Assembly: GCA_017962315.1 (NCBI GenBank)
Contig: JAGCVN010000090.1
Location: 1-33,680, forward strand
DNA length: 33,680 bases
Direction: 5' to 3'
DNA from: Kiritimatiellia bacterium
GTDB lineage: Bacteria; Verrucomicrobiota; Kiritimatiellia; RFP12; UBA1067
In this document: piece after piece, positions 2,253 to 17,659 of the stretch
How positions within the stretch are numbered: position 1 is the first letter of the stretch
Layout of the letters: every line of letters begins with the position of its first letter
Program-made: the position numbers and the translations under genes
The notes under the pieces: model-generated
Database searches by the model: none
What the model saw: only the letters and a program-made list of their open reading frames with translations
Told to the model about the DNA's origin: nothing

Positions 2253-2269
2253 GGTGTTTGTAAAACCGA

Positions 2270-2355
2270 GCGGCGTTTTCATAACCGCGCATGGTTGTGC
2301 GCGGAAGAAGTAAACGTTGTTTTGAATTGTTCATGTTGTCTCCAGAAACTTACCC
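2270..2355 (+). repeat. 86-bp dispersed repeat, copy 1
   Basis: Matches 3032-3117 at 83 of 86 positions with no gaps. It contains a perfect hairpin, CCGCGCA-TGGTTG-TGCGCGG, at 2285-2304. It starts 18 bases after the stop codon of the upstream gene. A GC-rich segment (2367-2415) follows whose reverse complement recurs near 17560-17600. Confidence 0.9.
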
Positions 2356-2435
2356 TCATCTACATTCCCGCGCGAAGCGCGGGCGGGGGGCTTGCCTATA
2401 ACTTCACCCCCACAACAGGGGTGGATTGTTTATGG

Positions 2436-2465
2436 ACGCAGAGACGCGGAGAGCACAGAGGCGAG
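2436..2465 (+). repeat. 'cgcagagacgc' type low-complexity repeat, forward copy
   Basis: Purine-rich array built from cgcagag/cgcggag/cacagag units. An inverted copy lies at 2788-2826 and a forward relative at 17660-17690. Arrays of this kind occur between genes in many bacterial genomes (general knowledge); their function is not established. Confidence 0.65.
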
Positions 2466-2650
2466 GGGGGGAGAAAATGGAAAGTGTAAAGTGTAAAGGG
2501 GTGGCGCCGTTGTCTCAAGTCATCCGTGTTGTCTCCAATCATCAGGGGAAAATTGCAAAACATCGCGACAGTTGTGTTTTCAACGGTACGCCTTGGAACC
2601 GGAGACAACCGTGACAACAATTTGAAGAGGCGCGGCGGTCACGAAAGAAG

Positions 2651-2729
2651 AACAAACGGATTTGCTTACGCCTAACGGCGTTCGCAAGGAGGAAGTGAGC
2701 CGCGTTAGCGGCGAACAAATCCGTTTGTT
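2651..2729. repeat. 79-bp imperfect palindrome (long hairpin)
   Basis: The outer arms AACAAACGGATTTG (2651-2664) and CAAATCCGTTTGTT (2716-2729) are perfect reverse complements. Inside, CGCC-TAACG-CG (2669-2680) pairs with CG-CGTTA-GGCG (2701-2713) through single-base bulges, leaving a loop of about 20 bases. No T tract follows on either strand, so it is not an ordinary intrinsic terminator. It resembles a REP- or MITE-like palindrome. Confidence 0.7.
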
Positions 2730-2787
2730 AACCCCAAAACGCCTGTGTAAAGTGTAAGATGGAGGGGGGGCTCCTGCCGTTGCCATT

Positions 2788-2826
2788 TCTCTGCGTCTCT
2801 GCGCCTCTGCGTTAATTTTTTTACAC
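2788..2826 (-). repeat. 'cgcagagacgc' type low-complexity repeat, inverted copy
   Basis: On the minus strand this reads as a T/A-rich lead (taaaaaaattaa) followed by cgcagaggcgcagagacgcag. The same order, T/A run then gaagaggcgcagag, is seen at 17660-17690 on the plus strand, so the two are copies of one composite element. Confidence 0.65.
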
Positions 2827-2921
2827 ACGTACCTTCCGTCCGGCTTGCCGCGCACCGCAAGGGCGGTGGGGACGCCGTCTTTCCCTTCTCCGTGCCCCCG
2901 TGGCTCTGTGTGAGACAAAAA

Positions 2922-3046
2922 GTTATCCACATCTACATTCGAAGCGTGGGCGGGGGTCTTGCCTATAAGTTCGATTGGTGACAACTGAAACAACTTGTAA
3001 AGACAACATCCTTCTTTCGCTGCGCAACAGCGCGGCGTTTTCATAA
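2922..3046 (-). repeat. Dispersed composite repeat, related to 17488-17620
   Basis: Its reverse complement aligns along its whole length with 17488-17620. Shared blocks in the same order are aaaacgccgcgc, atgttgt-tttacaagttgttt, tatagg-aag, ccgcccacgctt and a terminal ggataac/gggtaac. It overlaps the start of the second 86-bp repeat, sharing the ggcgttttcat core, so the two elements form a tail-to-tail palindromic arrangement. Confidence 0.7.
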
Positions 3047-3117
3047 CCGTGCATGGTTGTGCGCGGAAGAAGCAAACGTTGTTTTGAATTGTTCATGTTG
3101 TTTCCAGAAACTTACCC
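3032..3117 (+). repeat. 86-bp dispersed repeat, copy 2
   Basis: Second copy of the repeat at 2270-2355, differing at three positions. The repeat-like sequence (agcgaggacggggggg, then cttgtcacta) continues up to the stop codon of the GH20 gene on the opposite strand (3148-3150), so the 3' end of that gene abuts the repeat. Confidence 0.9.
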
Positions 3118-3147
3118 GTACGAGCGAGGACGGGGGGGTGCTTGTCA

Positions 3148-4896
3148 CTAGCGTAGCCGCTCGTTTGACCGGGGAATTAACTTGGCGAGGCTGTCCGACA
3201 ATCCCCCCGGACGGTTTTCGTTCAGCCAGATATGCCGGAAAAGGGTCTCCGTTGCCGCCCGTTCGCTCTTGCTCCAGCGGTATTCCGCCGGTGTCGCGGC
3301 GAGTTTGAGCAACTTGCGCAGATAGGCCTGTGTTTCCGTTCCCGCTTCCGGGCGTTCAAGGAACCGTCGATAGGCACGTTGAAAGGCGGGCGACGGAGCA
3401 AGCGGTTTATTGAAACGGAGCGCGTTGAAAAGTGGGCTTGCGTTTCCGATCGGCGGAAACAAACGGTAGAGGTCGGCGAGTCGCAACAGTTCCCGTTCGT
3501 ATCCAATCGGGCAGAATCGGCACAACGTGGCGCAAAGGTCGAATCGGCGGTTGGTTTCCGCGCACCAGGAGACGGCTCCGGCATAGAGGTAGGCGGGGTA
3601 ACTGACGGCGAGCGGTTGCCAGTGACCTTCGTCGCCCCAGTCGGTCAATAGAAAGCCCGCCGCGCCGTTGTCGCGCCCGTGCCGCGCGGCGGATTCGATG
3701 TTTGCGATCATGTTTGTGTGCCGCCCGAAAAGGGATCGCCACGACGACGTGCCGGGGCAGACGTAGAACGGGACTCCGCTTTTTCGGAACAGTTGGGTGT
3801 GTTCTTCAAACGGATGGTTCGCCTCGTAGCCCCATTCCAGCACGGTGAGGCCTTCGGGCAGTTCAGGCACGAGTTCCGGATGGTGAAGGATGATGTCACC
3901 CCAGCACATCATTTCTCGCCCGCGCTCTGTAACAAGGTGGTGTACCTGTTTCAAAAAGTCCAGGTAGACGCGCCCGGTGTCTTTTCCCTCTCCGGGCGAA
4001 CCGGGGGCGAAACTCCGTCCCTTCCCGCAGAGGTCGAATGTTTCATCGCAGCCGACATTGAAACGGCACGAGGAGAAATTCGGCAGAAGTGCGTCATATA
4101 GGCCACACAGGAAATCAAGCGAGCGGGAATCGGTCGGGCAGAGCGCGGAACAGTACGCTCGCGTACCGCCCCACGGTAACGGCGCCCCGCCGCCCGGCAG
4201 TTCGGCGAGTGGGCGGTAACGCGGGTGCGCGAGCCAGCGTTCCAGATGTCCAAAGGAATTCTGGTTCGGAACGAGTTCAATACAGCGTGCGGCGCAGTAG
4301 GCATCCAGTACGCGGATCTCCTCTGGCGTGAAGGGGGAAGCGTTCTGCCAGATCTCCTCGTGGCCGGGATAGGCGAATGTGTGTTCAATGTAAAGTTGCA
4401 ACTGGTTGTAGCGGAGCGAGGCGAGGAGATCGATTAGCGTGAAGAGTGTGCGCATCGTGGGGACTTTGTCACGGCTGACATCCAGCATGAGTCCCCGGAC
4501 GGGGAAGTCTGGCGCGTCTTCGGCGGTCAGGCAGGGCATCCGGTCTGCTGCTTTCCCGGCACAGAGGCTTCGGAGTGCCTGCACGGCGTAAAACAGTCCG
4601 GCCCGGTCTTCCGCCTCGACCCGCGCTCCGTCCGGGCGGATACGGAGGCGGAAGGACTGCGGACCGAGGACGCGCCCCCTGCGGAAGCGGAACGCGACTT
4701 TGTGGCGTGCGTCTGCGAACGTGTGGCGCGGAAGGCGGCTGCCGAATAGCGTGTCAAACGCCTGTTTCGCGGGTAAGACGTCCGGCGACGAGAACCCCGT
4801 CCAGCAGACATCGAATCCGTCGGGCGCGGGGATACGGAAACACCCGTCCAAGGGACGGAACTTTCGTGGCGCGGGGAAAAGTTGTGCGGACGTCAT
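3148..4896 (-). CDS. GH20 family beta-N-acetylhexosaminidase-like glycoside hydrolase, cytoplasmic
   Basis: A 582-residue protein without a signal peptide. Residues 1-125 form the GH20b-like N-terminal domain, ending in a 'GLFYAVQALRSL' helix. The catalytic barrel begins with FPVRGLMLDVSRDKVP (about 131-146). The GH20 acid/base pair appears as NVGCDETFDL (Asp284-Glu285), after the usual 'LVPNQNSFGHLERW' strand. A 'TVLEWGYEANHPF' segment and 'GFLLTDWGDEGHW' give further barrel motifs with the expected tryptophans. Known role: hydrolysis of terminal beta-GlcNAc/GalNAc; here probably intracellular trimming of imported oligosaccharides (inference). It starts 14 bases after the purB stop, so it is likely the second gene of a purB operon. 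Its stop codon abuts a dispersed repeat. Confidence 0.85.
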   Translation of the reverse strand: MTSAQLFPAPRKFRPLDGCFRIPAPDGFDVCWTGFSSPDVLPAKQAFDTLFGSRLPRHTFADARHKVAFRFRRGRVLGPQSFRLRIRPDGARVEAEDRAGLFYAVQALRSLCAGKAADRMPCLTAEDAPDFPVRGLMLDVSRDKVPTMRTLFTLIDLLASLRYNQLQLYIEHTFAYPGHEEIWQNASPFTPEEIRVLDAYCAARCIELVPNQNSFGHLERWLAHPRYRPLAELPGGGAPLPWGGTRAYCSALCPTDSRSLDFLCGLYDALLPNFSSCRFNVGCDETFDLCGKGRSFAPGSPGEGKDTGRVYLDFLKQVHHLVTERGREMMCWGDIILHHPELVPELPEGLTVLEWGYEANHPFEEHTQLFRKSGVPFYVCPGTSSWRSLFGRHTNMIANIESAARHGRDNGAAGFLLTDWGDEGHWQPLAVSYPAYLYAGAVSWCAETNRRFDLCATLCRFCPIGYERELLRLADLYRLFPPIGNASPLFNALRFNKPLAPSPAFQRAYRRFLERPEAGTETQAYLRKLLKLAATPAEYRWSKSERAATETLFRHIWLNENRPGGLSDSLAKLIPRSNERLR

Positions 4897-14914: not shown

Positions 14915-14998
14915 TAAATCGTTTTTGGTTGTGAAACCCTATCGACGGCAGGCGTGCTGTGTGCGGGAATGTCTGTCGAAAGAGAAAGGAGACTTGAC

Positions 14999-15976
14999 AT
15001 GGCAAGATATCTTGATCCGAAGGCCGATTTGACCTTCAAGAAGATTTTCGGCGAACATTCTGACCTGCTGGCGAGCCTTTTGAACGCGCTTCTGCCCCTT
15101 CCGCAAGATAGCAGGATTGACTTCGTCGAATATCTCACGCCCGAAGTCGTGCCTGATGACCCTCTCCACAAGGACAGTATCGTGGATGTCCGTTGTAGGG
15201 ATCAGTTGGGACGGCAGTTCGTCGTGGAGATGCAGATGATCTGGACGGCTGACTACAATCAGCGTGTCCTATTCAACGCGGCGAAGGCTTACGTAAGGCA
15301 ACTTCCCGCGGGAGGCGAATATCGTGATCTTAAGACGGTCTATTCGCTGAACCTCATCAACGAAGTCATCAATTCCGACATCCCGGATTATTACCATTAT
15401 TACCTGCTTGAACATAGCAAATACAAGGGTAGAACGATAGACGGAATGCAGATTATCTTCGTCGAGCTTCCAAAGTTCACCCCAAAAAACTATAGCGAGA
15501 AGAAGATGAAGGTACTGTGGCTGAGGTTTCTGACCGAGATTAACGAGACTACGAGGAAGGCACCGGCGGAACTTGAAGCAGACCCCGATGTGAAGAAGGC
15601 GCTCGACATGGTTGAAGAATCTGCGCTGGATGACGCCGAGAGGGCACGATACGACGGGTTCATCGACTGGCTTCGCCGAGAACGTGGACGGGCTAGACGC
15701 GAGAAAGAATACAACGAAAAGGTTGCGCAACTTAAAACTCTGGAAGCGGAACGCGACGCGGCTACGGCGGAACGCGACGCGGCTACGGCGGAACGCGACG
15801 CGGCTACGGCGGAACGCGACGCGGCTACGGCGGAACGCGACGCCGAAAAGAAACGTGCTGATATGGCGATGGAGAAATTGCGAAAGACGGCCCGCAATTT
15901 GAGGGCGATGGGGCTGGACACCGAACAGATTTCGATGGCGGTCGGGTTGACAGCCGCCGAAATCGATGCCCTTTAA
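14999..15976 (+). CDS. Rpn-family PD-(D/E)XK nuclease / putative transposase with heptad-repeat coiled coil
   Basis: A 325-residue member of the Rpn (recombination-promoting nuclease, transposase_31/PD-(D/E)XK) group. Typical features: the N-terminus ARYLDPKADLTFKKIFGEH, the nuclease core with Asp of SIVDVRC and the VVEMQM strand (the D...ExQ pattern), and the late ARNLRAMGLDTEQISMAVGL helix-turn segment seen at the end of many family members. The start at 14999 is set by AAAGGAG seven bases upstream; an in-frame ATG at 14954 lacks a ribosome site. Residues 250-282 are four exact AERDAAT heptads plus a partial fifth, encoded by identical 21-bp units, followed by a charged coil. It sits inside a sugar-use cluster with its own strong promoter, 24 bases before the transporter. 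No terminal inverted repeats were seen around it. Confidence 0.87.
   Translation: MARYLDPKADLTFKKIFGEHSDLLASLLNALLPLPQDSRIDFVEYLTPEVVPDDPLHKDSIVDVRCRDQLGRQFVVEMQMIWTADYNQRVLFNAAKAYVRQLPAGGEYRDLKTVYSLNLINEVINSDIPDYYHYYLLEHSKYKGRTIDGMQIIFVELPKFTPKNYSEKKMKVLWLRFLTEINETTRKAPAELEADPDVKKALDMVEESALDDAERARYDGFIDWLRRERGRARREKEYNEKVAQLKTLEAERDAATAERDAATAERDAATAERDAATAERDAEKKRADMAMEKLRKTARNLRAMGLDTEQISMAVGLTAAEIDAL
15746..15844 (+). repeat. 21-bp in-frame tandem repeat (minisatellite), about 4.7 copies
   Basis: Four identical copies of a 21-bp unit (GCG GAA CGC GAC GCG GCT ACG) followed by a partial fifth, GCG GAA CGC GAC GC. Each unit encodes one heptad (AERDAAT) of a predicted coiled coil in the Rpn-family protein. 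Exact identity at the DNA level, including synonymous positions, indicates recent expansion. Confidence 0.97.
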
Positions 15977-15999: not shown

Positions 16000-17433
16000 A
16001 TGGATGTGGACAGGTTGACGTGGACGGACCGTATCGGATTCGGCGCGGGGGATTTCGCGCAGAACCTCGTGTATGCGGCGGTCGGCAGTTATCTGCTTTT
16101 TTTCTACACGGACGTAATAGACCTTCCCCCGGCCATTGCAGCGTCGGTGTTTTTTGTTGTGCAGATTGTGGATACAGCTTGTGAGCCGTTTGTCGGCGTG
16201 TTTATCGACCGGGTCAATCCGCCTTGGGGCAAGTACCGGTCGTATCTCCTTCTTGCCGGATTGCCGCTCGTACTCTCCGCCGTGTTGTGTTTTACCCATC
16301 TGCCCGTGGAAGGTGTCTTCGTGTGGAAAATCTTGTACGCCTACGCGGCATATGCGGGGTTCAGTCTGCTATTTGCAGTCGTGAATGTCGCTTACGGGGC
16401 GCTCAACGCCTCGCTTTCGCGAGAGACGGACGAGATCACCCTTCTCACTACCGTTCGAATTTTTATGGCGAATGCCGGTTGTCTCGCCGCGATGGTGGGG
16501 ATTCCTCTCTTTGTCGCTTCGTTCGCGAGTGAAAGGGTGTTGCCCTGGCGCATGATGCTGTTCATGGGGTTTGGGATGTTGCCATCCTTCGTCTTTATGC
16601 CGTTCCTTCCGGCACTCAGACGGTTTTTCGGTAAAAGAAACCTTTTTTTCGTGTTCGCATCCGTCGCCGTCGCCGGTATGGCCGCACTCTACGTCTTGAG
16701 CCGGTTATGGCGTGTTGCGGATCATCCTGGACTGATTTATGCCGCACAGTTTGTAAAGGCATCGGGTATTATCGTTGCAACGGGGTATATGTGGACGTTT
16801 GTCCCGGAGGTGATCGCGTATTCGGAACATCGAACGGGGCGGCGTATGTCGGGGATCGTGAATGCCGTCATGGGGTGCTTCTGCCGGCTTGGAATGGCGT
16901 TCGGTAAAGTTCTTTCGGGGGGTGTCCTCGCCTGGACGGGATATCGAGCCGCCGTTGCAGAAGGGAAGATTTCTCTGCCGACAGAACCCCGCGCCTGGTT
17001 CTGGACGATGGTGGGACTCGCGACGCTTGCCGCCGCGTTACTTGTCTTTTCTTTTACTCGGATCCGGGAACGTGTGGTGATGGACGCGGCAGAGTCCGCT
17101 CTGGTGAAGGTGGGGGACTTGTGGCGGGAATTCTTCCGGAACGCGCCTCTTCGGCTTCTCTCGCTCTTCTTTGTGGTGGTGTTCGCCATGTTTTCGGTCG
17201 GTAACGCGGCGGGTGTGTATTTTATGAACGGGTTGGAAGAACAGCCACCGTCCGCAGGGGAGGGGATACGTTGGCTCGTCTGCATCATTCCTTCCCTCCT
17301 CCTTGCCGTTGCTGCGGCCGTCATCGCCCGTTATCCGCTTAGCGACGACCTTGTAGCCCGTCTTAATCGCGAAATCAGCGGCAAGTCCGCAGCCCGCGCC
17401 TTGCACGGGAATGAAAATGAGGATACGTTTTGA
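16000..17433 (+). CDS. GPH-family (MelB-type) sugar:cation symporter
   Basis: A 477-residue integral membrane protein with about 12 hydrophobic segments. It begins like the glycoside-pentoside-hexuronide:cation symporter family: DRIGFGAGDFAQNLVYAAVGSYLLFFYTDVI, then DTACEPFVGVFIDRVNPPWGKYRSYLL, matching the MelB motif in which the Asp and Arg/Lys residues of helices II-IV bind the cation. The central EVIAYSEHRTGRRMSGIVNAV is also family-typical. Known role: uptake of sugars, glycosides or uronides with Na+ or H+; the substrate here is unknown but probably the product of the DUF4838 protein (inference). The ribosome site is weak, so expression may depend on the Rpn gene 24 bases upstream. Confidence 0.88.
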   Translation: MDVDRLTWTDRIGFGAGDFAQNLVYAAVGSYLLFFYTDVIDLPPAIAASVFFVVQIVDTACEPFVGVFIDRVNPPWGKYRSYLLLAGLPLVLSAVLCFTHLPVEGVFVWKILYAYAAYAGFSLLFAVVNVAYGALNASLSRETDEITLLTTVRIFMANAGCLAAMVGIPLFVASFASERVLPWRMMLFMGFGMLPSFVFMPFLPALRRFFGKRNLFFVFASVAVAGMAALYVLSRLWRVADHPGLIYAAQFVKASGIIVATGYMWTFVPEVIAYSEHRTGRRMSGIVNAVMGCFCRLGMAFGKVLSGGVLAWTGYRAAVAEGKISLPTEPRAWFWTMVGLATLAAALLVFSFTRIRERVVMDAAESALVKVGDLWREFFRNAPLRLLSLFFVVVFAMFSVGNAAGVYFMNGLEEQPPSAGEGIRWLVCIIPSLLLAVAAAVIARYPLSDDLVARLNREISGKSAARALHGNENEDTF

Positions 17434-17444
17434 CTGGAAACGAT

Positions 17445-17573
17445 ATGAACAACTTTTATGAGGAGCCGGACGGAATTCGAGACCCGGATGCAAAACGCCG
17501 CGCGGTTGTGTGGCGAGAAACAAAAAATGTTGTTTTTACAAGTTGTTTCTGTTGGTTTCAATATAACGTATAG
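17445..17573 (+). pseudogene. Possible 5' stub of a lost gene downstream of the transporter
   Basis: An ATG lies 12 bases after the transporter stop with GGAAA before it, as expected for the next gene of an operon. It opens a 42-codon frame whose first 14 or so residues (MNNFYEEPDGIRDP) look protein-like. From about 17488 the DNA belongs to a dispersed repeat, and the frame ends at TAG 17571-17573 in low-complexity Cys/Phe-rich sequence. This fits a gene cut off by repeat invasion or a deletion, but a chance frame is possible. Confidence 0.3.
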
Positions 17574-17620
17574 GTAAGCTCACCGCCCACGCTTTACACG
17601 GGAATGTAACTGTGGGTAAC
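17488..17620 (+). repeat. Dispersed composite repeat, distant copy of 2922-3046 (inverted)
   Basis: Aligns end to end with the reverse complement of 2922-3046: aaaacgccgcgc at 17492-17503, atgttgt-tttacaagttgttt, tatagg-aag, ccgcccacgctt and gggtaac. The copies have diverged but stay collinear. The rest of the gap, 17621-18069, holds one more shared block (17660-17690) and no credible gene. Confidence 0.65.
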
Positions 17621-17659
17621 TTTGTGGCTCTTCAGTGTTTTTGCGGCAAGGGAGCTGCA

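Follow-up and report, generated by a model that had tools for sequence, protein, structure and literature searches.

The window analyzed here, a stretch of 33,680 nucleotides that constitutes the whole of contig C21 in a draft genome (G000; 3.26 Mb in 157 contigs, 84.6% complete), contains two nearly identical sequences of 86 bp in direct orientation, which raise the question of whether they bracket a block of duplicated DNA or belong to some larger mobile structure. The copies, located at 2270–2355 and 3032–3117, differ at 3 of their 86 positions (97% identity, E 5e-35 in the search of the own genome), in agreement with the 83/86 identity reported in the initial annotation of this DNA. Such identity is far above chance expectation, and the pairwise similarity extends leftward to 2264 and 3026, respectively (95% over 92 nt). 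The CCGCGC..GCGCGG hairpin that had been noticed in each copy is indeed present in both, with one C-to-T change in copy 2. The locus is enclosed by two convergent genes, and the block between the copies (2356–3031, 676 bp), previously described as gene-free, has a single open reading frame (ORF) of more than 100 aa mostly within it (2580–3044, minus strand), for which no Pfam match was found at E 0.001. The additional statement that the pair is far better conserved than the other repeats of the window holds in comparison with the dispersed repeats, the identity of which is 63–84%, but not with a 21-bp tandem repeat at 15725–15850, five in-register copies of which lie inside ORF 14954–15976 and are more exact than the 86-bp pair.

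The 86-bp Copies as Parts of a Dispersed Unit

When the own genome was searched with the 86-bp copy, 40 scored matches were obtained from 95 candidates, with 91–100% identity, and the left arm of the unit gave 82 matches as opposed to none for a reversed control pattern. This count of genome copies, which had been recommended, shows many others besides the two in the window and upholds the proposal of a dispersed non-autonomous element. We then aligned 30 copies with their flanks; copy 1 of the window is contained twice in this alignment, copy 2 having been read separately from the sequence and from the comparison of repeats within the window. One common unit is apparent amid unrelated flanks, and the 86 bp that had been considered as the unit correspond to the right half of an element of ~210 bp. 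In the alignment, the unit starts near CTTGCCTATAAGTTCGATTGG and terminates in AAACTTACCCTCATCTACATTCCCG-hairpin-CGGGCGGCGGGC, with ACAAC-rich arms and two GC hairpins in between. Its conserved ends can be written as TTGCCTATAAsTT ... AAsTTAyCCTCATnTACATTCCCG-hairpin-CGGGCGGCGGGCT, the cores between them being interchangeable. Many contigs begin or finish at these repeats.

Both ends can be read in 71 distinct units, and in 66 of these the variable base of TATAAsTT on the left is complementary to that of AAsTTA on the right; since related copies are not independent, this count is descriptive. The complementary pairs comprise 40 of the C...G and 26 of the G...C combination, G...C ends being found mostly with core B and C...G ends with other cores. 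Among the five exceptions, L004 and L005 contain cores of 362 and 740 nt and probably cover more than a single unit.

Layout of the Arrays

The locus is a head-to-tail array with the order half B, A1, core E, A2, B and A3. The A modules were located by a profile search with a model of module A, and all have the plus strand in the array at 2264–3144 and the minus strand in a second array of the window. The features of both arrays are listed below, with the evidence for each in parentheses.

2264–2345, plus: right half of a B core in a truncated unit, first part of copy 1 (30-copy alignment with flanks; repeat D2)
2346–2401, plus: end-module A1, the conserved right end with GC hairpin (profile E 1.9e-20, 69.1 bits)
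2402–2918, plus: core E, a core of ~515 nt (own-genome matches, mapped on fetched stretches)
2919–2968, plus: end-module A2, right end of the E unit, hairpin with internal deletion (profile E 1.2e-11, 40.9 bits)
2959–2971, plus: left end TTGCCTATAAGTT of the complete B unit, overlapping the end of A2 (read from the sequence; conserved in the 30-copy alignment; pairs with the right end)
2972–3107, plus: complete B core with ACAAC/GTTGT-rich arms around GC hairpins 3019–3038 and 3047–3066, most of copy 2 (sequence, alignment, fold, consensus structure)
3108–3144, plus: end-module A3, partial and diverged (profile E 0.018, 11.6 bits)
17380–17430, minus: end-module A of the second array, in the last codons of ORF 16000–17433 (profile E 1.5e-10)
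17492–17568, minus: left half of a B core, second array (inverted repeats I1 and I8; pattern match 17529–17556)
17569–17623, minus: end-module A, second array (profile E 1.3e-13)

Copy 1 lacks the left half of the unit and starts 11 bp past the stop codon of ORF 693–2252; copy 2 is nearly whole, complete on its left side and ragged on its right side. In the second array, the homology of ORF 16000–17433 to its orthologue in G003 ends at 17376, where a module A begins, indicating that the last codons of this ORF are derived from the element.

The dispersal of core E was followed with a 19.9-kb query against four genomes of the genus and with twenty stretches of the own genome, which were fetched and mapped. 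Parts of 2264–2972 are matched with ~81–90% identity on contigs C46, C113, C97, C84, C138, C125, C98, C132, C104, C37, C131, C28, C23 and C47, and the neighbors of the block differ at its other positions in the own genome. Contig C28 (L266) contains an end-bounded miniature, the interior of which resembles core E from 2577 onward. Judging from these sequence matches, the 676-bp block is itself a second dispersed element of the same system, forming one unit with core E. The core also contains, at 2651–2729, an inverted repeat of 27 nt with 81% complementarity and 25 nt between the arms; similar stretches were matched at several sites of the own genome as well as in G001.

Each 86-bp copy is thus the right half of a unit whose hairpin core is B, and the block between them is one unit with core E. 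The initial interpretation, a duplication bracketing a block, resembles the alternative in which the pair arose by local duplication of a single 86-bp sequence, or in which the bracket was produced by insertion of the 676-bp block. Although copy 2 is the nearest relative of copy 1, with 3 differences, an unlinked copy on contig C79 is equally near to copy 2, and 57 of the 561 pairs that can be formed among 34 distinct copies differ by 3 or fewer positions. Copy 1 is moreover truncated and the block recurs elsewhere with different neighbors, so that a local origin of the pair is extremely improbable and already largely refuted. The bracket around the block is an accident of an array. Deletion between the direct copies would be possible, but none was seen.

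Distribution among Relatives and Variation between Species

A query of 211 bp found matches in 18 of 41 genomes, and among the matches listed outside the own genome most cover only the right end, namely module A. Core B was found in 16 of 60 genomes; all 16 are among the 37 that represent the window's family, whereas the 23 from the order's other families gave no instance. A 21-base pattern of module A was recognized in 74 stretches of public genome contigs, the corresponding metagenome-assembled genomes (MAGs) being titled Kiritimatiellae, Verrucomicrobia, Lentisphaerae or 'uncultured bacterium' and many of them coming from ruminants. The same pattern had 0 matches in IMG/VR, and a phage origin was rejected on this basis. 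Both the sequence and the type of the core vary freely between species, A ends being found around unrelated cores in other species, and the neighbors of the window sit on other contigs in the three other genomes of the genus.

The genomes G020 and G060 (UBA1200, the genome of L131) share about 95–97% identity over most of their common stretches. Contig C26 of G020 has two units in inverted orientation, and the segment of ~2.1 kb between them runs in the opposite direction in G060, which has other filler instead of module A at both junctions. Comparison of three G020 stretches with UBA1200 revealed neither a clean empty site nor a target duplication for the A-ended form, the orthologous places being occupied by other filler. 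Homologous recombination among the many units would probably lead to inversions, such as the one seen in this relative, and to deletions.

Module A is adjoined by degenerate tandem words of 5–10 nt in named MAG loci (L067–L140). Of 73 cases, 36 have words above the 99% shuffle level upstream of A and 13 have them downstream, compared with 2 of 69 in DNA 500 nt away, and the corresponding values for the own genome are 6/62 upstream and 0/62 downstream. A slipping polymerase might leave such errors, and the tandem words beside the fixed end in related species would then be consistent with spread by copying.

Folding of the Units

The unit of the window (2957–3150) folds better than all of its 200 shuffles, with a z of -4.34, and the fold of another unit copy is likewise better than all shuffles (z -2.54). 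The consensus structure of core B, obtained with 17 cores from five genomes, contains 36 predicted pairs, 5 of which show two-sided changes, 4 of these in the second inner hairpin. Conversely, two-sided changes are absent from the 4 predicted pairs of the module A hairpin in 63 sequences, and the structure of this hairpin is therefore without covariation support here.

The strength of the predicted folding and the two-sided changes in core B, together with the position of the site between two convergent genes, could be expected if the units were structured RNAs or transcription terminators under selection, retained for their function and not mobile as such. We consider this explanation very unlikely, because the core changes freely between species in sequence and even in type, and the copies have unrelated surroundings and are missing from orthologous junctions of a relative. 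Furthermore, Rfam has no match in the window at gathering scores.

Core B in ISKra4-Type Ends

Elements with GGGCGCATCTGCGTnnTTCACC ends enclose core B or related filler in G001, G002, G004, G010 and G042. Such ISKra4-type ends were found in 12 of 41 genomes, each of them from the window's family; there are 12 in the own genome and 207 in G002. Among the loci examined there are 41 facing end pairs, 38 of which were testable for a 9-bp direct repeat; this was exact in 10, had one mismatch in 6 and more mismatches in 22. The forms in relatives thus are miniature elements with the 22-bp ends of the insertion sequence and 9-bp target duplications, the features of ISKra4-derived MITEs, and since core B is enclosed in them an ISKra4-like transposase is the probable mover of this form. 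Contig C42 of G004 (L272) contains identical 22-bp ends in the form of terminal inverted repeats, 1,804 bp apart, and encodes between them a protein of 438 aa that scores 148.8 bits (E 2.5e-43) with the ISKra4 transposase model NF033572, below its curated cut-off of 205. The right end of the L272 element coincides with the end of the contig. Copies of the end-bounded element in G004 (L204–L208) include, between the hairpins, the first part of a GxxExxY-type (PD-(D/E)XK-like) gene, which is interrupted by the ends of the contigs.

A strict test of 110 B-arm contexts in the loci examined assigned 64 to an ISKra4-type end within 60 nt, 8 to an A-type left end and 38 to neither; many of the latter are right arms that face a module A, while some (on G009 contig C17 and G002 contig C9) have neither end. 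Given this split between end types, core B is associated with at least two kinds of ends, and it may constitute a third, nested element. In the window's form, A-type ends replace GGGCGCATCTGCG in the 30 aligned copies, the flanks of which, inspected for target duplications as had been suggested, did not reveal any, and this form consequently lacks the defining features of an ISKra4-derived MITE.

The abundance of ISKra4-type ends around core B (64/110 contexts), the 12 such ends in the own genome and an end-bounded copy of 236 bp on its contig C152, which has a 9-bp duplication with one mismatch, are also compatible with a different history, in which the window's form would be a decayed ISKra4-type miniature. 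The B unit would then have been spread by an ISKra4-like transposase and have lost its outer ends, the A modules being bystanders. However, the A-bounded form is commoner here and its copies are 91–100% alike, which suggests spread with the present ends, and A ends also enclose unrelated cores in other species; we thus judge such decay to be unlikely, though not negligible.

Search for a Putative Mover of the A-ended Form

The own genome yields 2 matches to the transposase family Y1_Tnp, which is also represented in 19 of 25 relatives. No module A was found within about 1.5 kb of Y1_Tnp genes at 30 loci, a result that led us to discard a RAYT origin. The Y1_Tnp gene of contig C41 in G000 (L032, 1257–2350) lies between palindromes of its own, TCGCAAGGGCAAGCCCTTGCGA, and is likely a RAYT with its own repeats, unrelated to the A and B units. 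Y2_Tnp (PF04986) is present in 3 of 41 genomes and in none of G000–G005, an absence on the basis of which an IS91/Helitron partner was rejected. The GxxExxY nuclease was rejected as the mover on three grounds: the own genome, G009, G010, G013, G020 and G042 all contain core B yet gave no match to this family; many genomes have the family without core B; and 0 of 30 GxxExxY loci have an A module. The GxxExxY piece in the G004 copies amounts to 37 residues and 22.2 bits, under the cut-off of 35.

No gene recurs beside module A in the fetched loci, in which clusters correspond to ORFs overlapping the repeats or to orthologous neighborhoods; with 84.6% completeness of the draft genome, partners may be missing from it. 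The titles and abstract openings retrieved by a literature search, which included the motif TTACATTCCCG, ISKra4 with MITE and insertion sequences of Kiritimatiellae, contained no description of these repeats.

Interpretation

The results of our analysis make it likely that the window carries an array of small non-autonomous mobile elements, the unit of which consists of TTGCCTATAAsTT, an interchangeable core and a right end of ~50 nt with a GC hairpin (module A). Dispersal, head-to-tail arrays, complementary ends, a right end spread across the lineage and differences between species are all observed. It is from their spread that we infer movement of the A-ended units, which would have been dispersed by an enzyme supplied in trans that recognizes their ends. 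The view of the locus as mobilized, non-autonomous DNA rich in hairpins, already contained in the initial annotation, is therefore supported. It is rather doubtful, on the other hand, that A-ended units represent a new class of non-autonomous bacterial element, in which a putative enzyme would read the fixed hairpin right end, the ends would be kept complementary and the cores freely swapped, including a hairpin core in common with an unrelated transposon family.

The intergenic DNA of a group of uncultured bacteria, largely from the rumen, is filled with such repeats, which coincide with assembly breaks, replace gene ends and flank an inverted segment. Should their ends prove to be of a new mobile kind, a novel mobilizing enzyme would be indicated; if not, the repeats still provide a clear case of one hairpin core on two different end systems.

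Comparison with Known Systems

The units share with MITEs of the ISKra4 family their short length, the lack of genes, the many copies and the palindromic structure, and core B of relatives lies in ISKra4-type ends with 9-bp duplications, whereas in the window's form such ends and duplications are missing and the right end is of the A type. Similarly, REP, REPIN and BIME sequences associated with RAYT are intergenic, bear hairpins and occur in high copy number and in series, but the unit of the window measures ~210 bp and more, its cores are swapped and 0 of 30 Y1_Tnp loci have module A. IS200/IS605-derived PATEs and non-autonomous elements of the IS91/Helitron type have a hairpin near one end, no clear target duplication and an arrangement in head-to-tail series. 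The A-ended units exhibit these same three properties, yet no linked Y1 or Y2 transposase was found for them. Integron attC sites, finally, have end boxes RYYYAAC at 5' and GTTRRRY at 3'. Module A differs from them by its opposite polarity, with GTTA at the 5' end and TAAC at the 3' end (AAGTTAyCC ... CCTATAACTT), and the segments between A modules differ from those of attC arrays in being without recognized genes; what the two kinds of array have in common is a series of folded sites with variable segments in between.
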